The notes under the pieces: generated by a model
Database searches by the model: none
Seen by the model: the letters and a program-made list of their open reading frames with translations, nothing else
Told to the model about the DNA's origin: nothing
NCBI GenBank assembly: GCA_020881835.1
Contig: CP052876.1
Span: 2,604,001 to 2,668,000 of the forward strand
Length of the DNA: 64,000 nucleotides
Origin: Kineosporiaceae bacterium SCSIO 59966
GTDB lineage: Bacteria > Actinomycetota > Actinomycetes > Actinomycetales > SCSIO-59966
Direction of reading: 5' to 3'
In this document: positions 4,704-64,000 of the stretch, one piece after another
Layout: each line of letters begins with the position of its first letter
Numbering within the stretch: position 1 is the stretch's first letter
Position numbers and translations under genes: made by a program

Positions 4704-4720
4704 TGCAGACGACGGGCTTG

Positions 4721-4786
4721 GGGTGGCGGGATTGCATGATCACGAACGAGGGGTGGTCGACTGATCACGAACAAGGGATGGTCGGC
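4721..4786 (-). repeat. Element A copy plus a 25-bp tandem repeat
   Basis: Element A spans 4721-4743. Two 25-bp units beginning TGATCACGAAC follow (4737-4761 and 4762-4786, three mismatches), the first overlapping the end of A. The cluster lies just past the stop (4824) of the minus-strand Hsp90-like gene and A reads in that gene's direction. Confidence 0.8.
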
Positions 4787-4823: not shown

Positions 4824-7805
4824 TCACCCGAATGCCTCCTCCGCGGCGACCGCCGCGGCCCGGTCCGGTGCCGTCAGCACCTCCTCGACGGCCTGCCGCC
4901 GCCCCCAGCGCCCGGCTGCCTGCGCCAGGCCACGGGCCAGCCCGGCCAGCGTGGTGGCGTGGACGACGGCGTCCGGACCGGTCCCGTCCACCCACCACTC
5001 GACCGGCTCGCCGTCCACGCTGAGGTCGTCGTGCTCGCACCAGGACGGCGGCGCCTGCGCCAGCAGCAGCCGCACTCCCGCAGGGACGTCGCCGGCGCCG
5101 TCGTCGGGGCACTCGCCGTCGACGCGGCCGCCGGCCCGCTCGGACGCCAGGTCGAGGTCGAGCAGGTCGGCCAGGGCGGTCGCGGTCCCCGCGGGGGCGG
5201 GCAGCAACGGACCGAGGTCGGTGCGCTGCCACCACATCGGTGCGTCCGCGACGGCGACGTCGCCCGCGTCGGCGGTGACGGCGGTGCCGTCGGCCTGCGG
5301 GACGCGCAACCGGGCCGGCGGCTCAAGGTCGCCGATCGCGCCGTCCGCCGCGGCACGGGCGAGAACGGTCAGGACGTCGAGCACGGTCCCCGCGGATGCG
5401 TCCCGCTCGGCCAGGGCTGCGAGCATCCGGGCCCAGCCGTCGGCGTCCAGGTCGCCGAGGTCGCGGACGAGCCCGAGGGCGCGGCGGGCGCCGGGGTCGA
5501 GTCCCTGGGCCAGCTCGGGGGCAGGTGGCAGCGCGGCGGCCACCGCGCTGTCGGCGTCCGGGTCGGTGTGTCCGGCCAGGCCGAGACGGCGGCGCAGCCA
5601 CCACGCGGTGTACGCCGGCACCCGGGCGGTCGACCCGTCGGGCCGGCGGACGAGGAGGGGCTCGACGAGCGCTGCCCGCAGGTCGGGTGAGGCGGCCAGG
5701 TGCCGTAGGGCGTCGGCCCAGGCGTCCTCGCGGACGAGGTCGAGGTCCCGGACGGCGAGCACCTCCTCGGCGCTGCCCGGTCCGACGTCCTGGGCCCAGC
5801 GGTCGGCGCCGTCGAGGTCGGCGAGCGCGTCGGGCAGGTCCTCGAGGTCGACCTGGCCGACCCGCAGCAGCGGCAGCGAGCCGGCGACACCGACCGCCTC
5901 GAGCACCTCGGCGCCCCACCGGTGCAGCGTCTCCGCCGAGACCTCCAGGACGTCGTCGGGGTGGAGCAGGCCGGCGACGGTCGACCCGGGCAGGACGAGC
6001 GCGCCGGCCGGCGCCGGCTCGCCGTCCGCCGCGGGCAGCGGCAGGTCGGCCAGCCAGTCCGGCCACGGCCCGCCCGCCCCGTCGCGCACCGCGGCTGCGA
6101 CGAGGGACAGTGCGGCCTCGGTGGCCGCCCCGTCCTCGTCGTCCGCGACCGCGCGGGCGACTGCCGGGTCCTCCAGCACCGCGACCGGCCCGACGGCGCG
6201 GGCGCCGAGCCGCTCCAGCAGCCCGGCGGCCTGCTCGTCGGCGACGACGTCGGGGTGGACGACGCGCAGCCCCGCGGCGGACAGCCCGGCCAGCGCCTCA
6301 CCTGCCACCCCGGGACCGGGCAGCAGCAGGCCCCGGACGCCGCGGACCACCCGGCCGTCGGCGAGCGGGACGGGCAGGGCGGCCAGCGCCTCACGGGCCG
6401 CCGGGTCGGCGGCCAGGTGCGCCAGGGCCGCGTACCGTCGGCGCCACGCTGCGGGGTCGGGGTCGGCGGGCAGCTGGTCGACGAGGTCGGCCAGGGCGAT
6501 CCGCGGGACGCCGAGCGCGGCGAGCGCCGGGCCCGCGGCCCGGGGGGCGCGCACGAGCCCGGCGAGGACCTGACCGAGGACCCGCAGCACCTGCTCGTCG
6601 TCCCCGGCCGGTGCCTCGAGGGCCACGGCGTCCCGGGGGCGCACGAGCGCCCCGTCCTCCACCGTGCGCAGCACCGCCGCAGTGGGCAGCAGGGCGAGGA
6701 CCTGCTCGCGCAGAGCGGCGTCAAGACGGCCGGCGGGCAACCCGGTGGGCACGAGCCGGAGCACGTCGGCGCCGGCCGCAGCCTGCTCGCGCAGCAGGTC
6801 GGTGTAGGCAGCGGCGCACGCGGCGACGAGGGCCTCGCTGGCAGGGCCGTCCGCGACGTGCCGGCGGGTGTGCTCGAGCGGGAAGGTGGCGACGAGCAGA
6901 GCCGGCCACGCCATCGGCTCGTCGGTGGGGGTGGGTGCGTGCAGGACGGCGGGGACGGTCGTGGCCGGGTCGCGGGGCAGGGCCCAGGTGATGCTCCAGC
7001 CGGTGCGCGAGCGCTCCTCGGTGGGCCGGTCGGCGAGCAGCTCCGGGTCGTGGGACCCGTTGCGCCGCAGGGTGATCCAGCGCGCGGAAGGGTCGGTGAT
7101 CGTGCGAGCCGGCCGGCCGGGGACCTCGATGACGACCTCGCTCAGCGCGGGCAGGGCCAGCAGCAGCGGGTCGTCCACCTCGCCGAGCAGCCGCTCGACG
7201 AGGTCGCGGGCGGCGCCGTCGCGCAGCGGGAGCAGGACGGCGGTGTCGTACCCGGTCGGGGCGGCTCCGTCGGCCTCGAACGGCAGCCGTAGCGCGGGGA
7301 CGTGCCCGTCCCGGCGCTCCATCTCGGCGGCCAGGCCCGGCACGTCGGCGGCGGCCTCGCGCAGCAGGGCCAGGGTGTCGCCGCGGGAGAACCGGACGCC
7401 GCGGCCGTGGGAGACGACGACCGGCTCGTCGGTGACCGCGAGGACGGCGGCGAAGCCGACGCCGAAACGGCCGACGGCGGGGACGTCACCGCGCTTGGCC
7501 GAGGCGCGCAGCGAGGCGAGGGCTCGGACGCCGGCGGCGTCCAGCGGGGCGCCGGTGTTCGCGGCGACGAGGGTGGCGCCGTCCGGGCCCTCGGCGAGCC
7601 GGAGCAGCAGCCGGCCGGGCGCCGCGGCCCGGGCCGCGGCGTCCGCCGCGTTCTGGGCCAGCTCGACGACGAGCCGGTCCCGGTAACCGCCGAGGGCAAG
7701 CTCCTCCTCGGCGTTGGCGTCCTCACGAAAGCGGTCGGGGGCAGCCCGCCAACCGGCCAGCACGCGCTCGCGCAGGACGGCCGTGCCGAACGAGTCCCCG
7801 GCCAC
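4824..7805 (-). CDS. Hsp90-like / sacsin-type GHKL ATPase domain protein
   Basis: A 993-residue cytoplasmic protein. Its first 170 residues hold a GHKL ATP-binding fold: ELAQNAADA (the N-box, with Glu and Asn in the usual places), AANTGAPLD, and the lid motif GRFGVGFAAVLAV. The remaining 800 residues are Ala/Leu/Asp-rich and carry no domain I recognise. Actinobacterial annotation often calls this family Hsp90-like or sacsin N-terminal-like; its clients are unknown. GTG 7805 is chosen because it sits five bases after the DUF3027 stop. It is the third gene of a cold-shock/DUF3027/ATPase operon. Confidence 0.85.
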   Translation of the reverse strand: MAGDSFGTAVLRERVLAGWRAAPDRFREDANAEEELALGGYRDRLVVELAQNAADAAARAAAPGRLLLRLAEGPDGATLVAANTGAPLDAAGVRALASLRASAKRGDVPAVGRFGVGFAAVLAVTDEPVVVSHGRGVRFSRGDTLALLREAAADVPGLAAEMERRDGHVPALRLPFEADGAAPTGYDTAVLLPLRDGAARDLVERLLGEVDDPLLLALPALSEVVIEVPGRPARTITDPSARWITLRRNGSHDPELLADRPTEERSRTGWSITWALPRDPATTVPAVLHAPTPTDEPMAWPALLVATFPLEHTRRHVADGPASEALVAACAAAYTDLLREQAAAGADVLRLVPTGLPAGRLDAALREQVLALLPTAAVLRTVEDGALVRPRDAVALEAPAGDDEQVLRVLGQVLAGLVRAPRAAGPALAALGVPRIALADLVDQLPADPDPAAWRRRYAALAHLAADPAAREALAALPVPLADGRVVRGVRGLLLPGPGVAGEALAGLSAAGLRVVHPDVVADEQAAGLLERLGARAVGPVAVLEDPAVARAVADDEDGAATEAALSLVAAAVRDGAGGPWPDWLADLPLPAADGEPAPAGALVLPGSTVAGLLHPDDVLEVSAETLHRWGAEVLEAVGVAGSLPLLRVGQVDLEDLPDALADLDGADRWAQDVGPGSAEEVLAVRDLDLVREDAWADALRHLAASPDLRAALVEPLLVRRPDGSTARVPAYTAWWLRRRLGLAGHTDPDADSAVAAALPPAPELAQGLDPGARRALGLVRDLGDLDADGWARMLAALAERDASAGTVLDVLTVLARAAADGAIGDLEPPARLRVPQADGTAVTADAGDVAVADAPMWWQRTDLGPLLPAPAGTATALADLLDLDLASERAGGRVDGECPDDGAGDVPAGVRLLLAQAPPSWCEHDDLSVDGEPVEWWVDGTGPDAVVHATTLAGLARGLAQAAGRWGRRQAVEEVLTAPDRAAAVAAEEAFG

Positions 7806-18754: not shown

Positions 18755-18788
18755 CCCCACCCCACCCCCCTCCAGCGCCCCCCACTCG

Positions 18789-18811
18789 GTGATCATGCAA
18801 TCCCGCCACCC
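18789..18811 (+). repeat. Element A copy downstream of xpb
   Basis: A full 23-bp copy beginning GTGATCATGC, 34 bases after the xpb stop and in the xpb direction. The IS110 element begins a few bases further on. Confidence 0.9.
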
Positions 18812-18858
18812 CCCGACCCCTTCGTAGTAATGGCGTTCTGGGAGGGGGTTCGCATAGA

Positions 18859-28407: not shown

Positions 28408-28424
28408 ACCCCCAACCCCCACTC

Positions 28425-28480
28425 GTGATCATGCAATCCCGCCACCCCACCCCACTCGTGATCATGCAATCCCGCCACCC
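28425..28480 (+). repeat. Two element A copies between convergent genes
   Basis: Copies at 28425-28447 and 28458-28480, both reading with the WXG100 gene, past its terminator. The convergent PIG-L gene ends at 28501. Confidence 0.9.
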
Positions 28481-28500
28481 GGCGCAGGCGCCCCTTCCCG

Positions 28501-29157: not shown

Positions 29158-29831
29158 CACGCGGCTCCGGGGTCCGAGGTCTCCAGCGGGCGGCCGGCGA
29201 CCCGCCACTCCAGCAGGCCGTCGCGGCTTCGGCGAGCGGGCCGGCCGCGGGCGGCGAGCAGCCGGAGGGCGTCGTGGGCCAAAGCGCAGTACCGGCCACG
29301 GCAGTAGACGAGGACCTCCCGGTCCGCCGGCAGCTCGGCGAGCCGGTCGGCGAGCTGCTCGAGCGGGATGCCCAGTGCCCCTGGCAGGTGACCGGCGGCG
29401 TACTCGACCTCGGGCCGGACGTCGAGGAGGACGGCGTCCCCAGTCTGCACGGCGGCGAGCAGCTCATCGACGCCGACGGCGGCGTCGTCCGCCGCTCCCA
29501 GGTAGGCGTCACCGGCCGCGTCCACACTCGGACGGTGCGCGGCCGCCACGCCGCGCAGCGCCTGCCACAGCGCGGCGACGTCGTCCCCGGCCAGGGCGTA
29601 GCGCACCCGCTTGCCGTCGCGCCGGGAGACGACTAGGCCCGACTCGCGCAGAACCTGCAGGTGAGCCGAGCAGGTGCTCAGCCCGAGCCCCGCGGCACGA
29701 GCCAGGTCGTCGACGCTCCGGGACCCCTGCGCCAGCAGGTCGAGCAGCTCCAGACGCTTCGGGCTGCCGAGCGCCTTGCCGACGGCCGCGAACTCCGCGA
29801 ACAACGCGTCCTTGGCGGCACGGTCAGCCAT
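29157..29831 (-). CDS. ArsR-family regulator fused to a rhodanese domain (copy 1)
   Basis: A 224-residue protein. Residues 1-95 are an ArsR/SmtB winged helix (GSPKRLELLDLLAQG, then LGLSTCSAHLQVLRESGLVV). Residues 110-215 are a rhodanese domain (LLDVRPEVEYAAGHLPGA) with the active-site loop VYCRGRYCALA. Such fusions sense reactive sulfur or metal stress. It overlaps the start of the PIG-L gene. Codons 1-219 lie inside a 931-bp segment repeated at 32603-33533, so this is one of two nearly identical copies and the one with the natural C-terminus (ETSDPGAA). Confidence 0.9.
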   Translation of the reverse strand: MADRAAKDALFAEFAAVGKALGSPKRLELLDLLAQGSRSVDDLARAAGLGLSTCSAHLQVLRESGLVVSRRDGKRVRYALAGDDVAALWQALRGVAAAHRPSVDAAGDAYLGAADDAAVGVDELLAAVQTGDAVLLDVRPEVEYAAGHLPGALGIPLEQLADRLAELPADREVLVYCRGRYCALAHDALRLLAARGRPARRSRDGLLEWRVAGRPLETSDPGAA

Positions 29832-30106
29832 CGGTGACCTCCACGGCCCTGCGCGCACCCACCGGGTCATGCGTCTCGTACATCCGCACCGCGACGACCA
29901 GGGCGGACAGCAGGCTAACCGCCGCGGCGGCCCACACCGCGGCACGCAGGTCCCACAGATCCGCCACGACACCACCGGCGACAGCACCGACGGCGTAGCC
30001 CAGGTCCCGCCAGACCCGGTACACGCCGACGGCCCGGCCCCGCCAGACGGGATGAGCCACGTCCCCGACGACGGCCAACAAGGTCGGGTAGACCATCGCC
30101 GTCCCG
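29176..30106. repeat. 931-bp direct repeat, copy 1
   Basis: The sequence from 29176 to 30106 matches 32603-33533 at a constant offset of 3427 bases. No mismatch was found where the two were compared by eye, and the encoded proteins are identical. It covers most of the ArsR-rhodanese gene and the 3' end of the MFS gene. Confidence 0.9.
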
Positions 30107-30316: not shown

Positions 30317-30412
30317 ATGACCACCGACACCCTTCTCGCCCAGTCCGCCATCGACCAGCTCACCTCAGGCGCCCACACCCTCGTCGTCGAAGGATCCTCC
30401 TACCGCGAACGC
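30317..30412 (+). pseudogene. Probable C-terminal scrap of an IS21-type IstB ATPase
   Basis: The frame MTTDTLLAQSAIDQLTSGAH continues TLVVEGSSYRERER. This resembles the last residues of IstB helper ATPases, where a DRL...H segment is followed by a GxSYR tail. Nothing else of the ATPase is present. It lies at the left edge of the low-GC cassette, in a 375-base gap (30263-30637) otherwise lacking recognisable genes; a possible promoter (TTGCTC, 18 bases, CATACT) lies at 30425-30454. The identification is tentative. Confidence 0.45.
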
Positions 30413-30637
30413 GAGCGTACTCGGTGTTGCTCCAGGGACTGGAGGTCCGCCATACTCAGCAACACCCCAAGGTGGTCCCATGCTCGTGACAACACGATGG
30501 TCTTATCACCCTGACGATCGACAGACGCCTTCCTCCGGACCGACACGGCCGTTCCCACAGGCCACGGGCAGGGAGTCCGTGTCCGTCTACAGGGAGATTG
30601 GCATGTCCACTAGCACAACGGTTTACGGGAGAAGGAG

Positions 30638-31546
30638 ATGCGTCGATACCTACTCTTTGACAGTGGTTGCTCACTGTGTTCGAGAGTCGCTGACGAGATC
30701 AAGACGGCCGCCCGCGGCTGGCTAGACGTGCGAAGCCTGCGCGACCCCGCCATGCAGGAGATTCTGGACAAGGCCGATCCCGATTGGAAATGGCGTCCAA
30801 CGCTGCTCCTCATCGAAGACGATCGGGTTCGCATCGTCCAGGGTGCGACGCTGCTCTCCCGGATCGCGATCGGAATCGGGCCCCGGCAAGCAATGCGGAT
30901 CGCTTCACTTGTCGGCGAGCAGAGCACGCCCGCGGACGCATCCTCACCAGGTCGACGCACGTTCCTGATGTCAGCGGCGGCCGGTGTCGCGACACTAGCT
31001 GGCGCAGCGATCCTCGGTCGGCCCGCACCGGCTGCCGCGCAATCTTCGGGCGCGATGGCCGCCGATGACAAACTCGTGGCGCAAGCACGAGCCACATCCC
31101 AGATCACGGAACTTGAGCAGGCCATCGCCGTGGACTTCGACCTCGAGCCCCTGGGGACCGTGCGTCATTTCGATGGCGGCAAGAGCGAGACTCTGCTGTT
31201 CTACCCATCCAAGGACGACCCCGACAATGTGGCAGCTGCTCTCGTTCTGGCGCAAGACAGTGCGAACAAGACGGTGGCCGGAGCGACGAAGGTGACCCGG
31301 GCTGGAGATGCGCCACAGGACTGGGACTTTGAGGTGCTCGTCACCTCCGACGGAAACACCGTGACCCCCACGGGGGTACCCGAGTACACCGGATGCATGG
31401 TTACCTGCGTCGCCGGGCTCTGCGCGCCCACCGTGGTGCTGACCTGCTCACGACTGATCTTCGCCGCTGCGATCCTAGCCTGCATCACCGCTAGTTGCGG
31501 ATCCCGAGTGGCGCCCTGTCACCGCGGATGCGTTCACCTACTCTGA
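30638..31546 (+). CDS. DCC-like CxxC domain, Tat-like segment and eight-cysteine C-terminal peptide
   Basis: A 302-residue protein of unknown function. Residues 1-95 begin YLLFDSGCSLCSRVADE (Cys11, Cys14), like DCC thiol-disulfide oxidoreductases. An RRTFLM twin-arginine motif (106-107) and hydrophobic stretch to 126 end at a plausible APAAAQ cut near 134. Residues 135-250 form a soluble region. The last 50 residues carry eight cysteines (253, 257, 262, 270, 282, 287, 294, 298) among hydrophobic residues. This tail recalls halocin C8-like bacteriocins by eye only. GGGAG lies six bases before the ATG. GC content is visibly lower than in neighbours, which suggests transfer. A secreted peptide precursor is one reading. 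Confidence 0.65.
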   Translation: MRRYLLFDSGCSLCSRVADEIKTAARGWLDVRSLRDPAMQEILDKADPDWKWRPTLLLIEDDRVRIVQGATLLSRIAIGIGPRQAMRIASLVGEQSTPADASSPGRRTFLMSAAAGVATLAGAAILGRPAPAAAQSSGAMAADDKLVAQARATSQITELEQAIAVDFDLEPLGTVRHFDGGKSETLLFYPSKDDPDNVAAALVLAQDSANKTVAGATKVTRAGDAPQDWDFEVLVTSDGNTVTPTGVPEYTGCMVTCVAGLCAPTVVLTCSRLIFAAAILACITASCGSRVAPCHRGCVHLL

Positions 31547-31608: not shown

Positions 31609-32352
31609 ATGAGTGAAAACCTTGTGGACAGGTTGCTCGCGCAAGCTGGAGCCCGATTCACCTGGCGTATGACCAGCCAAGACCGTGGCTTGATCGCATA
31701 CGGTCGAGGCGTCGTCGACTTCCAAGCCGAGAAAATTGCGACGGTGGACTACTACCTCGTGGCCGACGAACCCAGCCCCAACCACGTGACTAGCAAAGCG
31801 AAGCCACCGGCGACGCGAACGATCACCAATCGAGACGCCATCTTCGTGCTCGCCCCAACCGAGGACGCCGACGAGGAATGGCTTGCATTCGAGACCGGCG
31901 CCGGCGGGCTGTCCGCGTCCGTTCTGGCCCCACTCCTGTGGCTTCGAGGTAGCGTCGTCAAGGTTCAGGACGACCTCATACAGGCCGGTGAGCATGCGCT
32001 CACGATCGACTTCCAAGAATACCTGGACCAACTCGATTCCACGGAACGCGTCACCGAGCGTAGCATGCTGGAATTTGGCCGCGTCGGACTCTCCGGACAA
32101 CAGATCAACGCGACTATACGGGTCAACGAGAGGGGACTCGTCGAAAGAATGACCACGTCCTTCCCCCCGGGCGTATCCCCACTAATCCCCGTCGGGCACG
32201 AACAAGTCGAACAAGAAATCGTCTTGGAGTGGCTGCCCGTCAGGCCAGCGATCCCAACTCCTGATGCGCACATGAGAGTGTCCGCTGGCAATTTTCTTCG
32301 AGCGACCCTCATCGAATCAGGCGTGCCTGGTTGGGGAGACGAGACGGAATAG
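31609..32352 (+). CDS. Hypothetical protein, partner of the cysteine-rich precursor gene
   Basis: A 247-residue protein I do not recognise. It begins MSENLVDRLLAQAGARFTWR and has no signal peptide or membrane helix. Its alternating beta-like stretches (ARFTWRMTSQDRG, RGVVDFQAEKIATVDYYLV, NATIRVNERGLVERM) faintly recall LppX/LolA-like lipid-binding folds without the lipobox. ATG 31609 is chosen because AAAGAGA lies before it; an upstream ATG at 31591 adds six residues. It lies 62 bases after the cysteine-rich gene, on the same strand and in the same low-GC segment, so the two may form one unit. Immunity or processing roles are guesses. Confidence 0.6.
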   Translation: MSENLVDRLLAQAGARFTWRMTSQDRGLIAYGRGVVDFQAEKIATVDYYLVADEPSPNHVTSKAKPPATRTITNRDAIFVLAPTEDADEEWLAFETGAGGLSASVLAPLLWLRGSVVKVQDDLIQAGEHALTIDFQEYLDQLDSTERVTERSMLEFGRVGLSGQQINATIRVNERGLVERMTTSFPPGVSPLIPVGHEQVEQEIVLEWLPVRPAIPTPDAHMRVSAGNFLRATLIESGVPGWGDETE

Positions 32353-32593: not shown

Positions 32594-33258
32594 CCCGGCC
32601 CGGAGGTCTCCAGCGGGCGGCCGGCGACCCGCCACTCCAGCAGGCCGTCGCGGCTTCGGCGAGCGGGCCGGCCGCGGGCGGCGAGCAGCCGGAGGGCGTC
32701 GTGGGCCAAAGCGCAGTACCGGCCACGGCAGTAGACGAGGACCTCCCGGTCCGCCGGCAGCTCGGCGAGCCGGTCGGCGAGCTGCTCGAGCGGGATGCCC
32801 AGTGCCCCTGGCAGGTGACCGGCGGCGTACTCGACCTCGGGCCGGACGTCGAGGAGGACGGCGTCCCCAGTCTGCACGGCGGCGAGCAGCTCATCGACGC
32901 CGACGGCGGCGTCGTCCGCCGCTCCCAGGTAGGCGTCACCGGCCGCGTCCACACTCGGACGGTGCGCGGCCGCCACGCCGCGCAGCGCCTGCCACAGCGC
33001 GGCGACGTCGTCCCCGGCCAGGGCGTAGCGCACCCGCTTGCCGTCGCGCCGGGAGACGACTAGGCCCGACTCGCGCAGAACCTGCAGGTGAGCCGAGCAG
33101 GTGCTCAGCCCGAGCCCCGCGGCACGAGCCAGGTCGTCGACGCTCCGGGACCCCTGCGCCAGCAGGTCGAGCAGCTCCAGACGCTTCGGGCTGCCGAGCG
33201 CCTTGCCGACGGCCGCGAACTCCGCGAACAACGCGTCCTTGGCGGCACGGTCAGCCAT
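32428..33258 (-). CDS. ArsR-rhodanese regulator (copy 2, altered C-terminus)
   Basis: Residues 1-219 are identical to the protein at 29157-29831: ArsR winged helix, then rhodanese with VYCRGRYCALA. After LETS the repeat ends (32603) and the frame runs on for about 57 residues of antisense of the IS1380 scrap (GPGCSGRAASAVSSTATW onward), giving 276 residues. The added tail is low-complexity and surely not functional, though the two domains are intact. The start overlaps the MFS stop by eight bases, and the operator at 34555 lies upstream of the MFS gene, so this copy is probably the regulated one. Confidence 0.75.
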   Translation of the reverse strand: MADRAAKDALFAEFAAVGKALGSPKRLELLDLLAQGSRSVDDLARAAGLGLSTCSAHLQVLRESGLVVSRRDGKRVRYALAGDDVAALWQALRGVAAAHRPSVDAAGDAYLGAADDAAVGVDELLAAVQTGDAVLLDVRPEVEYAAGHLPGALGIPLEQLADRLAELPADREVLVYCRGRYCALAHDALRLLAARGRPARRSRDGLLEWRVAGRPLETSGPGCSGRAASAVSSTATWSAAVFDPALPAARPEPPRRRSRGGRGTPATGGTRTSSSA

Positions 33259-33533
33259 CGGTGACCTCCACGGCCCTGCGCGCACCCACCGGGTCATGCG
33301 TCTCGTACATCCGCACCGCGACGACCAGGGCGGACAGCAGGCTAACCGCCGCGGCGGCCCACACCGCGGCACGCAGGTCCCACAGATCCGCCACGACACC
33401 ACCGGCGACAGCACCGACGGCGTAGCCCAGGTCCCGCCAGACCCGGTACACGCCGACGGCCCGGCCCCGCCAGACGGGATGAGCCACGTCCCCGACGACG
33501 GCCAACAAGGTCGGGTAGACCATCGCCGTCCCG
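32603..33533. repeat. 931-bp direct repeat, copy 2
   Basis: The counterpart of 29176-30106 at an offset of 3427 bases, in direct orientation. The cassette with the cysteine-rich gene lies between the two copies. Confidence 0.9.
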
Positions 33534-34540
33534 GCCCCGAGGACGACGGTGCCCACGGCCCAGGGCGTGAACGCGTCGGCCGAGGCGATAACGGCGAGCG
33601 CAGCGGCCTGCGTGGCCATCCCGGCGGTGACGAGGTGCTTGCGGCCCCACCGGTCGGACAGCGCGCCGGTGAGCAGCTGACCCACCCCCCACACCGCCGG
33701 GTACAGCGCGAAGAGCAGGCCGACCCGGTCGACCGGCAGCCCCGACCCGGCGAACAGCAGCGGGAACAGCCCCCAGGACAGACCGAAGTTGAGGTTGTTC
33801 ACCAGGCCGGCCTGGCTCGCCGAGGACAGCGCCGGCTCGCGCAGGCTCGTCTGCAGCACAACCTCGCGACCGGTGAGACCTCCGTGCAGGTGGTCGTGGC
33901 GACCGTCGGCTCGCGGGACGTGACGGGACGCCTCCAGCGAGGCGTGCCCGCGGGTCTCCCGGACGACGAGCGTGGACAGGCCGAGGGCCAGGCCGGTGTA
34001 GGCGAGGCCGAGGAGGAACGGCGCCGGCCGCAGGCCGTACTCCGCAGCCAGGTAGCCGGCGGCGACCGAGGTCACGGCGACCGCGCCGTAGCCGGCAGCC
34101 TCGTTGAGGCCCATCGCCAGCCCCCGCCGCCGCGGGCCGACGAGGTCGATCTTCATGATGACGGTGGTCGACCAGGTCAGTCCCTGGCTCAGGCCGAGCA
34201 GGACGTTGGCTGCCACCACCCAGCCCCAGTCCGGTGCCCAGATGAGAAGCAGCGGCACCGGGACGGCGAGCAGCCAGCCACCGACGAGCACGGGCTTGCG
34301 CCCGTGGCGGTCCGACAGCTCGCCAGCCGCGTAGTTGGCGGCAGCCTTGGCCACGCCGAACGCGGCGACGTAGCTGAAGATGAACGTGTAGCCGGTGACG
34401 CCCAGCTCACGCTCGGCGAGCAGCGGCAGAACCGTCTGCTGCTGGCCGACCATCCCGCCGACGAGGGCGTTGACGGCCACGAGCAGCGTGAACTGAGCGG
34501 CGTTCGCGCGCAGGCCGAGGACGGGACGAGTCTCGGACAC
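33251..34540 (-). CDS. MFS transporter (intact copy)
   Basis: A 429-residue inner-membrane transporter with about twelve hydrophobic segments. The family loop between helices 2 and 3 is GELSDRHGRKPVLVGGW, and the mirrored loop in the second half is GALSDRWGRKHLVTAGM. The substrate is unknown. Its stop overlaps the ArsR-rhodanese start by eight bases. The GTG at 34540 follows a TAGCGT box by seven bases and a perfect inverted repeat by about 15 bases. The regulator is therefore likely to repress the operon. The last 283 bases are part of the duplicated segment. Confidence 0.9.
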   Translation of the reverse strand: MSETRPVLGLRANAAQFTLLVAVNALVGGMVGQQQTVLPLLAERELGVTGYTFIFSYVAAFGVAKAAANYAAGELSDRHGRKPVLVGGWLLAVPVPLLLIWAPDWGWVVAANVLLGLSQGLTWSTTVIMKIDLVGPRRRGLAMGLNEAAGYGAVAVTSVAAGYLAAEYGLRPAPFLLGLAYTGLALGLSTLVVRETRGHASLEASRHVPRADGRHDHLHGGLTGREVVLQTSLREPALSSASQAGLVNNLNFGLSWGLFPLLFAGSGLPVDRVGLLFALYPAVWGVGQLLTGALSDRWGRKHLVTAGMATQAAALAVIASADAFTPWAVGTVVLGAGTAMVYPTLLAVVGDVAHPVWRGRAVGVYRVWRDLGYAVGAVAGGVVADLWDLRAAVWAAAAVSLLSALVVAVRMYETHDPVGARRAVEVTDG

Positions 34541-35420: not shown

Positions 35421-35438
35421 GGCCAGACGGTGGCCGCA

Positions 35439-35503
35439 GGGTGGCGGGATTGCATGATCACGGGGGGTTAGGGGGGTGCAGGGTGGCGGGATTGCATGAT
35501 CAC
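35439..35503 (-). repeat. Two element A copies downstream of coxG
   Basis: Copies at 35439-35461 and 35481-35503, both in the direction of the minus-strand coxG gene, whose stop is at 35512. Confidence 0.9.
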
Positions 35504-35511
35504 GGGGGGGG

Positions 35512-36315
35512 TTAGGGGCGGGGGTGGCGGCGGCGGGCCAGCCACCAGGTGACGACCGCGGTGACGACGACGGCGACCGCCGTCGTGCCGTACCGGCTCA
35601 CCAGCGCCGGGCCGACGACCGATCCCAGGTCGAGCTCGGCGCTGGTCCTCCGGGTCGCCGGCGGCGCCAGCGGGCGCGGGGGCGGCGTGCTGGGAGCGGG
35701 CTTCGCGGCAGGCTCCCCCGGAGCGGCACCGCCGACCGCAAACTCCTGCGCGGCGGCAGGCTCCTGCGCGGCGACGGCCCGCTGAGCGGCGTCCTGGTCG
35801 GCGGACGGCACCGGCTCCCGAGCCTCCGCCTGCTCCGGCGAGGCCGCTGGCTGCTCAGCCTCCGCCGGCGCCGGAGCGCCCAGCGTCTCGGACAGGCAGG
35901 TCGCGAACTGCCCGAGCAGCTTGTCCCCGACGTCGGAGATCACGCCCCGGCCGAACTGGGCCGGCCGACCGGTGATCCGCAGGTCGGTGTCCACGACGCA
36001 CCGGGTGCCCTCGCCCTCGGGCTCGAGCCGGGCGGTGATGGTGGCCGACGCCGTCCCGTTGCCACGCCTGTCCTTGCCGCTGGCCTCGATGACCGCGCGG
36101 TAGGCGTCCCGGTCCCGCTCGAGGAACCGCCCGGTCCCGGTGTAGTGCAGCGAGATCGGCCCGAGCCGCACCTTCGCCAGCCCGGTGAAGTCGTCGCCGT
36201 CCATGCTGGTCACCTCGGCGCCCGGCAGGCACGGGGCGATCCGCGGCAGGTCGTTGAACGCCTCCCACGCAGCCTCGACGGGCAGCGGGACGGTGAACGT
36301 GTGCTGAAGCTCCAT
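35512..36315 (-). CDS. CoxG-type SRPBCC protein with C-terminal membrane anchor
   Basis: A 267-residue protein. Residues 1-150 are a START/SRPBCC fold of the carbon monoxide dehydrogenase subunit G family (MELQHTFTVPLPVEAAWEAF, LPRIAPCLPGAEV, FLERDRDAYRAVIEASGKD). An acidic Pro/Ala-rich linker follows, then a single membrane helix and WWLARRRHPRP. In Oligotropha, CoxG helps anchor CODH to the membrane. It ends the coxS-coxL-coxM-coxG operon, with four bases before coxM. Its tail is duplicated in the chimera at 34618-34974. Confidence 0.88.
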   Translation of the reverse strand: MELQHTFTVPLPVEAAWEAFNDLPRIAPCLPGAEVTSMDGDDFTGLAKVRLGPISLHYTGTGRFLERDRDAYRAVIEASGKDRRGNGTASATITARLEPEGEGTRCVVDTDLRITGRPAQFGRGVISDVGDKLLGQFATCLSETLGAPAPAEAEQPAASPEQAEAREPVPSADQDAAQRAVAAQEPAAAQEFAVGGAAPGEPAAKPAPSTPPPRPLAPPATRRTSAELDLGSVVGPALVSRYGTTAVAVVVTAVVTWWLARRRHPRP

Positions 36316-57714: not shown

Positions 57715-57758
57715 GGTCGCCAGCCCCGCCGGGTGCGTGATCACCCGCGGGCGCCGCG

Positions 57759-57781
57759 GGGTGGCGGGATTGCATGATCAC
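57759..57781 (-). repeat. Element A copy between convergent genes
   Basis: A full copy reading with the minus-strand nucleotidyltransferase gene, whose stop is at 57806. The DivIVA gene ends at 57714 on the other strand. Confidence 0.9.
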
Positions 57782-57805
57782 GAACAGAGATTCTCGACTG
57801 GTTGC

Positions 57806-62747: not shown

Positions 62748-63437
62748 GTGACCCAGCCCGCTCCCGCCGTCCGGACGGAGGTCGTGCACCCCTCGTGGCT
62801 GCCTGTCCTCGACCGCGTCGCCCCGGCGCTCCGCGACGTCGGAGCGCACCTGGCGGCCGAGGCGGCCGCCGGCCACGCGGTGCTGCCGGCCCCCGACCGA
62901 GTGCTCCGCGCGCTCGCGACCCCGCTGGACGACGTCCGGGTGGTCATCGTCGGGCAGGACCCCTACCCGACCCCGGGGCACCCGGTCGGCCTGGCGTTCG
63001 CCGTCGACCGGGCGGTCACCGTGCTGCCCGGGAGCCTGCGCAACATCTACCGGGAGCTGCACGCCGACACCGGGATGCCGGTGCCCGGGCACGGGGACCT
63101 GTCCGCGTGGACCGGGCGCGGGGTGCTGCTGCTCAACCGGGTTCTCACGGTCCGGGCCGGAGCGCCGGGCTCGCACCGGCAGCGTGGCTGGGAACAGGTG
63201 ACGGACGCCGTGCTGCGGGCGCTGGTGCACCGTGGCGGACCGCTCGTCGCCGTGCTGTGGGGCCGGCAGGCGCAGACCCTGCGCCCGGCGCTCGGCGACG
63301 TCCCCGTCGTGACCGGCGCCCACCCGAGTCCGCTGTCGGCGTCCCGCGGCTTCCTCGGCTCACGGCCGTTCAGCTGCGTCGACGAGCTGCTGACCGCCCA
63401 GGGCGCCGACCCCGTCGACTGGTCCCTCCCTCGGTGA
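62748..63437 (+). CDS. ung: Uracil-DNA glycosylase
   Basis: A 229-residue family 1 UDG. The water-activating motif is VVIVGQDPYPTPGHPVGLAF (Asp71); NRVLTVRAGAPGSHRQRGWE follows. The DNA-intercalation loop reads GAHPSPLSASRGF, with the catalytic His in HPSPLS. It removes uracil from DNA. GTG 62748 is preceded seven bases upstream by TAGGCA, close to the leaderless pattern. The TGA stop (63435-63437) lies inside element A at 63434. Confidence 0.95.
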   Translation: MTQPAPAVRTEVVHPSWLPVLDRVAPALRDVGAHLAAEAAAGHAVLPAPDRVLRALATPLDDVRVVIVGQDPYPTPGHPVGLAFAVDRAVTVLPGSLRNIYRELHADTGMPVPGHGDLSAWTGRGVLLLNRVLTVRAGAPGSHRQRGWEQVTDAVLRALVHRGGPLVAVLWGRQAQTLRPALGDVPVVTGAHPSPLSASRGFLGSRPFSCVDELLTAQGADPVDWSLPR

Positions 63438-63493
63438 TCATGCAATCCCGCCACCCCGCTCCCTCTCTCGGTGATCATGCAATCCCGCCACCC
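63434..63493 (+). repeat. Two element A copies, the first containing the ung stop codon
   Basis: Copies at 63434-63456 and 63471-63493, both in the ung direction. The TGA of ung is bases 2-4 of the first copy, so the coding sequence ends within the repeat. Confidence 0.9.
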
Positions 63494-63512
63494 CGCACGC
63501 ACCCCGTTCGCC

Positions 63513-63607: not shown

Positions 63608-63743
63608 GCGGATCATGCAGTCTCGCCATGTCCCACTCTCCGAGGGTGGCGGGATTGCATGATCACCGACAGGGGCGCAGTGGTGGGCGGGATTGCATGA
63701 TCACCAACAGGGGGCGCAGTGGTGGGCGGGATTGCATGATCAC
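63608..63743 (-). repeat. Cluster of element A copies downstream of the amidohydrolase
   Basis: A degenerate plus-strand copy lies at about 63608-63630. Minus-strand copies lie at 63644-63666, 63682-63704 and 63721-63743, the last two with the variant GGTGGGCGGG. The three read in the direction of the amidohydrolase gene (stop 63752). The last two are separated by a repeated CAACAGGGG-like linker. Confidence 0.85.
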
Positions 63744-63751
63744 GAAGAGGG

Positions 63752-64000
63752 TCAGGGGTGGGTGGGAGTGGGGTAAGGGCTGAGGTGGACGCCGTCACCG
63801 GCCTCGTCGTCCCAGGTGTAGACCTGCCGGCCGTCGACGAACACCCGCAGCGCGCGGGAGAACACGTCGAGCGGGTCGCCGGACCAGACCACGACGTCGC
63901 CGTCCTTGCCGGGGACCAGCGACCCGACGCGGTCGTCCAGCCCCATGATCGTCGCCGGGTTGATGGTGAGGGCACGCAGCGCCTCGTCGCGGTCCAGGCC
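63752..64000 (-). CDS. Amidohydrolase, C-terminal part (cut by window edge)
   Basis: The last 82 codons of a minus-strand gene that continues beyond the window. It reads GLDRDEALRALTINPATIMG, then LDDRVGSLVPGKDGDVVVWS, and DPLDVFSRALRVFVDGRQVY. This is the typical C-terminal beta-sandwich of imidazolonepropionase-like amidohydrolases (TINPA...G...G.i..GkdADlvvw). The metal-binding histidines lie outside the window. The substrate cannot be told. Confidence 0.85.
   Translation of the reverse strand, partial: GLDRDEALRALTINPATIMGLDDRVGSLVPGKDGDVVVWSGDPLDVFSRALRVFVDGRQVYTWDDEAGDGVHLSPYPTPTHP

Follow-up and report, generated by a model that had tools for sequence, protein, structure and literature searches.

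The precursor gene P0001 lies on the forward strand at positions 30638-31546 of the window (the whole 64,000-nucleotide stretch that was analysed) and is an open reading frame of 302 amino acids, open from its ATG; by inspection of the sequence, GGGAG is located six bases 5' of this codon. Residues 1-97 (30638-30928, forward strand) make up a putative thioredoxin-like, DCC-like domain, proposed from a weak Pfam DCC1-like match, invariant residues, an AF2 model and Foldseek comparisons. This is followed by an embedded, Tat-like signal peptide (residues 106-134, 30953-31039, forward strand), running from RRTFLM to APAAA, for which a conserved arginine, an AxA motif and TatC in the genome can be cited. 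The predicted secreted part comprises a middle region (residues 135-252, 31040-31393, forward strand), which may be a pro-region or a carrier of the tail, and a hydrophobic tail with eight cysteines (residues 253-302, 31394-31543, forward strand), the candidate mature peptide. On the 3' side of P0001 and in the same direction, ORF2 (31609-32352, forward strand) encodes a soluble protein of 247 amino acids without signal peptide, a candidate immunity or partner protein.

The N-terminal domain contains the active-site-like motif DSGCSLC at residues 8-14, with CSLC at residues 11-14 as the initial annotation had read it, and Pro54 (in WRPTL) in the cis-proline position. In 46 modules, C11, C14, P54 and G69 are invariant, while D8 is aspartate in 43 and asparagine in the others. 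DxxCxxC near the amino-terminus is also a feature of DCC1-like/DUF393 proteins, and the Pfam DCC1-like family (PF04134) matches residues 5-82 weakly, with an E-value of 0.0026 and 19.4 bits versus a cut-off of 27.8; the N-terminal part of most relatives has no Pfam match at all. The DUF393/DCC affinity suggested beforehand is thus borne out by the motif and the weak match, but not at the level of the curated cut-off. In the AF2 model of residues 1-97 (pLDDT 85.6), the secondary structure elements follow each other in the thioredoxin-like order beta-alpha-beta-alpha-beta-beta-alpha-alpha, with the CxxC motif beginning the first helix and Pro54 preceding the third strand. Foldseek comparison of these residues gives thioredoxin, PDI and GST N-domain folds as the top matches (probability 0.95-0.99), with a best E-value of 5e-3, none below 1e-3, and query TM-scores of only about 0.38-0.52; thioredoxins are also among the weak PDB matches of a sequence-profile search with the domain. 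Going by sequence and model together, we regard residues 1-97 as a domain of thioredoxin-like, DCC-like type whose active site is conserved. It shares the N-terminal motif, the predicted topology and the weak HMM match with PF04134, and differs from that family in scoring below the curated cut-off and in heading a secreted precursor; to our knowledge, the known DCC1-like/DUF393 members are stand-alone or membrane-associated proteins.

RRTFLM, confirmed at residues 106-111, precedes a hydrophobic stretch (hydropathy 1.8 over 19 residues), and the AxA-type site that had been placed near residue 134 is present as APAAA before a glutamine, with cleavage predicted after residue 134. Across the 46 modules, 45 have the first arginine of the RR motif but only 15 the second, with glycine (14), alanine (7), lysine (4), serine (3) and histidine (2) among the substitutes; most modules also retain the phenylalanine and the lysine or arginine of the SRRxFLK consensus. 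An AxA motif is located 22-42 residues past the arginine in all 45 of the members that have the conserved arginine and enough sequence, where 26.3 would be expected from shuffles, which argues that the mid-chain segment is a signal peptide that follows a domain roughly 100 residues long. In P0001, the twin-arginine before a hydrophobic segment, the signal peptidase site and the genomic Tat machinery are all present; TatC is encoded in each of the four genomes checked, including that of the window (G000), which has tatC. The initial description of a Tat-like segment is right for P0001, but the twin arginine is no feature of the family, and Tat routing has to be qualified because two thirds of the members lack the second arginine. 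Signals with a single arginine can be used by Tat when they are hydrophobic enough (PMC5539426), and cargo oxidised in the cytoplasm can be exported by this route (PMC9995818). On these sequence features, we consider Tat a candidate export route for P0001. The constant first and variable second arginine also make the family a natural test set for the strictness of the Tat motif.

Cysteines are found at residues 11, 14, 253, 257, 262, 270, 282, 287, 294 and 298, so that the last 50 residues contain precisely the eight that had been claimed. At cysteine frequencies of 0.8-1.2%, the binomial probability of eight or more cysteines in 50 residues is about 7e-9 to 1.5e-7. The 19-residue hydropathy reaches 2.19 in the tail. 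The only full-length relative, from a genome of another genus in the same order (G738, L048:6325-7251), is 33% identical over 308 amino acids (E 9e-50), with all eight tail cysteines aligned. The cargo (residues 135-302) groups with those of L032 and L048 alone, which are also the only homologues of the middle region. No Pfam or NCBIfam family matches this cargo at E-values up to 10, and the only, weak Pfam match to the L048 tail, a HEAT domain with an E-value of 0.055, is at chance level. The HMM for fulvocin C-related bacteriocins (NF033852, 35-bit criterion) matches neither P0001 nor its mature part. Profile comparisons with the other cysteine-rich cargo groups are non-significant (best P 0.015 over 43 tail columns), and a relationship with them was rejected. 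In the AF2 model of the full-length protein, the tail and most of the middle region have pLDDT values below 50, so no conclusion on the topology of the tail, a membrane helix included, is drawn from it.

A known enzyme family across the full length of P0001, which the initial annotation had named as speaking against its reading, did not appear in the Pfam and NCBIfam HMM scans. Its likening of the tail to halocin C8 found no HMM support, with no Pfam or NCBIfam match of the tail at E-values up to 10 in libraries that may hold no halocin model. A phage or viral origin was dropped, since phages and viral contigs yielded no match.

The N-terminal module, consisting of the CxxC/proline domain and the embedded signal peptide, is common to 46 actinobacterial proteins, which were found by searching with the whole of P0001 and with the aligned sequences of residues 1-135. 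The design that had been called unusual, in which a DCC-like redox domain ahead of the signal peptide would stay in the cytoplasm and a cysteine-rich cargo would be secreted, is therefore a recurrent one and no chance assembly. The relatives come from Rubrobacteraceae (several copies per genome), Streptomyces plasmids and chromosomes, Kibdelosporangium, Actinocatenispora, Virgisporangium, Microbacterium, Actinomycetospora and scattered others. Their distribution is patchy: the 396 genomes searched of the window's order gave seven strong matches, and of 395 from its class, 17 had any match; the scan of genome contigs used a narrower profile, and close relatives of the window protein are under-sampled in it. 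In an all-against-all BLAST of 45 members, 976 of the 990 pairs are linked via the N-terminal module and 171 via the cargo, and the cargoes behind the signal peptide fall into at least nine unrelated groups. Many are cysteine-rich, with 8-21 cysteines. The largest group (16 members) corresponds to NCBIfam NF033852, "bacteriocin fulvocin C-related", with E-values of 1e-25 to 1e-31 and 91-110 bits for the members scanned. The second group (15 members, each with 10-21 cysteines) contains two sets that are clearly related by profile comparison (E 3e-11). L014 and L015 have a long cargo of the M23 peptidase group with two to four cysteines, for which L015 gives a Pfam match, and L018 and L019 have a cationic, helical cargo with two cysteines. 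The architecture, its recurrence in front of different cargoes, the active-site residues, the predicted cut site and the tail cysteines can all be read from the aligned proteins themselves.

Ten Streptomyces plasmid records contain a fulvocin-type cargo, and the module is present in all eight of those checked. In two such plasmids (L025:5983-6927 and L026:5983-6960), PGAP places the start at 6262 and 6256, respectively, close to where the redox domain ends; most of the module is thereby cut off, which may partly explain why the fusion has gone unnoticed. In a complete Rubrobacteraceae genome (G011, L050/L051, about 2.230-2.250 Mb), four full-length members and a fragment of a fifth are located within 20 kb. 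These members have differing cargoes, and transposases and small membrane proteins are found nearby; the small membrane proteins could be candidates for immunity proteins. The fulvocin C-related precursors, which occur in Streptomyces and further actinobacteria, and P0001 have in common the DCC-like domain and signal peptide in front, a cysteine-rich carboxy-terminal tail and a similar length, but the P0001 cargo has no detectable similarity to the fulvocin C-related domain.

No family was found for ORF2 in the HMM scans, immunity families included. An ORF2 homologue with 75% identity over 123 residues is present at a contig end in genome G408 (L106:10640-11133), where it is preceded only by the last codons of a P0001 homologue (PCHRGCVRLL-stop, compared to PCHRGCVHLL-stop in P0001). 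This remnant indicates that the pair was inherited together and that the precursor gene was lost while its partner stayed. Outliving the precursor gene resembles the behaviour of an immunity gene, a possible role for which ORF2 is a candidate from this one case. In L048, a different gene of 233 amino acids takes the position of ORF2, with a divergent two-component system upstream; a relationship between this neighbour and ORF2 was rejected, the match being confined to 18 residues.

The region of P0001 and ORF2 has a GC content of 57-68%, against 73-77% in its surroundings, and this island is bracketed by perfect direct repeats of 931 base pairs. The left copy (29176-30106) and the right copy (32603-33533) are 100% identical and contain an ArsR-rhodanese gene and the adjoining end of an MFS gene. 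Such a perfect repeat points to recent arrival or to rearrangement, and suggests that an integration or a duplication took place very recently. At the left edge of the island lies a fragment from the 5' end of an istB gene of the IS21 type (30317-30415, forward strand), 84% identical over 32 residues to annotated IstB proteins. MFS fragments that are 89-95% identical to 34086-34315 are present on the left side as well. A scan of the island for promoters and terminators found none.

We propose that P0001 is the precursor of a bacteriocin-type peptide that carries a thiol oxidoreductase in cis and leaves it inside the cell after export, a reading to which, from sequence, we give about an even chance. 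The precursor would have three parts, namely the oxidoreductase domain (1-97), the mid-chain signal peptide (106-134) and the secreted part (135-302). While the chain is intact, the CxxC domain would act in cis on the cargo cysteines, oxidising or protecting them, or shuffling them until they pair correctly. Once the signal segment has engaged the translocase, the N-terminal domain would lie on the cytoplasmic face of the membrane; cleavage by signal peptidase after residue 134 would then leave the domain behind, tethered by the signal helix. Outside the cell, a protease would probably free the tail as an antagonistic peptide, from which ORF2 may protect the producer. The cis redox action, the export route, the proteolytic release, the antimicrobial activity and the immunity function of ORF2 are what we infer for P0001 from sequence. 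A bacteriocin-type role, as the initial annotation had suspected, becomes more likely because the same slot holds a fulvocin C-related domain in relatives, but the tail of P0001 itself has no bacteriocin HMM match. The cytoplasm is normally reducing, which counts against oxidation in cis. Also, the CxxC motif is kept before cysteine-poor cargoes (the M23 group and the cationic helical group), which disulfide formation by itself cannot explain. We hold as a more tentative possibility that the module is general in Actinomycetota: a thioredoxin-like domain with a relaxed Tat-type signal would fold and oxidise its own cysteine-rich cargo before export and then be cut off, and many unrelated antimicrobial and other cargoes would have been captured by it.

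The same retention of CxxC before cysteine-poor cargoes would fit a wider leader or chaperone role, and this makes for the strongest rival explanation: the N-terminal domain would be a generic export leader, acting as a chaperone, in timing or in membrane targeting, the redox centre would serve another purpose, and the cargo may still be a bacteriocin. The domain is far more conserved than any cargo, which speaks for such a leader. However, most cargoes are exceptionally cysteine-rich, and invariant active-site cysteines together with a cis-proline-like residue are expected of a catalyst rather than of a mere handle; we regard the generic leader as less likely than the precursor reading, though not negligible. 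Somewhat less probable again is that the cargo has no part in antagonism and, secreted and rich in cysteine, serves as a structural, a metal-binding or a cell-surface protein, the module being a device of actinobacteria for secreting envelope proteins. The existence of an M23 peptidase cargo would suit such a device, and "fulvocin-related" is a name given by similarity alone. Against it, antagonism genes typically show such a variety of cargoes, a patchy distribution, broken copies and a mobile context, and ORF2 has been kept without its precursor in G408. That the hydrophobic segment is an uncleaved anchor in a membrane-bound thiol redox relay, with the CxxC motif inside and a cysteine-rich domain outside, would agree with its location between two cysteine-bearing domains, but is improbable given the AxA motif at the right distance in every member that could be counted and the lack of relationship between the outside domains of different cargo groups. 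An internal start (for example at Met86), giving an ordinary secreted peptide with a normal Tat signal and leaving the DCC-like part as a separate or fossil product, matches the PGAP starts in the two Streptomyces relatives and is the least credible reading, since no part of the family is more conserved than the N-terminal frame, which is in frame with the cargo, and ribosome-binding sites precede the full-length starts of P0001 and L048.

Returning to the proposed bacteriocin-type precursor with its oxidoreductase in cis, a search of the open-access literature found nothing relevant on bacteriocin precursors with a fused redox domain. As a rule, separate enzymes of the Dsb type oxidise disulfide-rich bacteriocins once these are outside the cell, and a redox domain on the cytoplasmic side, within the precursor, would if true be a different solution both for making disulfides and for the choice of export route. 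We know of no redox domain in the halocin C8 precursor. Like P0001 as proposed, that precursor is exported and its carboxy-terminal peptide is freed by proteolysis. Extracellular release of this kind is stated for HalC8, and for HalH4 it is reported (PMC12893001); P0001 differs from the halocin C8 precursor in the redox domain and in a tail for which no HMM similarity was found. The glycocins sublancin and F4-9 each come with an oxidoreductase gene in their operon (BdbB), and EntV requires DsbA and a protease (PMC6606811). Like P0001 as proposed, these are secreted peptides whose activity depends on, or is linked to, a thiol oxidoreductase (PMC6606811); their enzyme is made apart from the peptide and in the case of EntV acts outside the cytoplasm, while in P0001 the redox domain is fused and placed before the signal peptide. 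P0001 would add to the known bacteriocin-type secreted precursors, and its real interest would come with a demonstration of cis action before export. The N-terminal module also provides a search handle for cysteine-rich secreted peptides that cannot be linked by searches with their cargoes, and it reaches groups most of which have no family name; the nearest named occupant of the slot of the P0001 cargo, the fulvocin C-related domain, is itself known as an annotation only.

Several relatives are broken. L053 is split by an insertion sequence, and L006, L007, L046, L047 and L055 are truncated. In Microbacterium arborescens (L044:5953-7149), the part with the redox domain and signal and a cargo with 17 cysteines are in one frame, with a single stop between them, which makes it either a broken gene or a split version. 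Such turnover of copies (split by insertion sequences, stopped or truncated) fits antagonism genes. All along the window, short interspersed repeats that contain GATCATGCAGTC-type sequence recur between genes, at 189-484, 4719-4756, 18768-18812, 28409-28494, 35435-35518, 57734-57783, 63424-63505 and 63644-63759.
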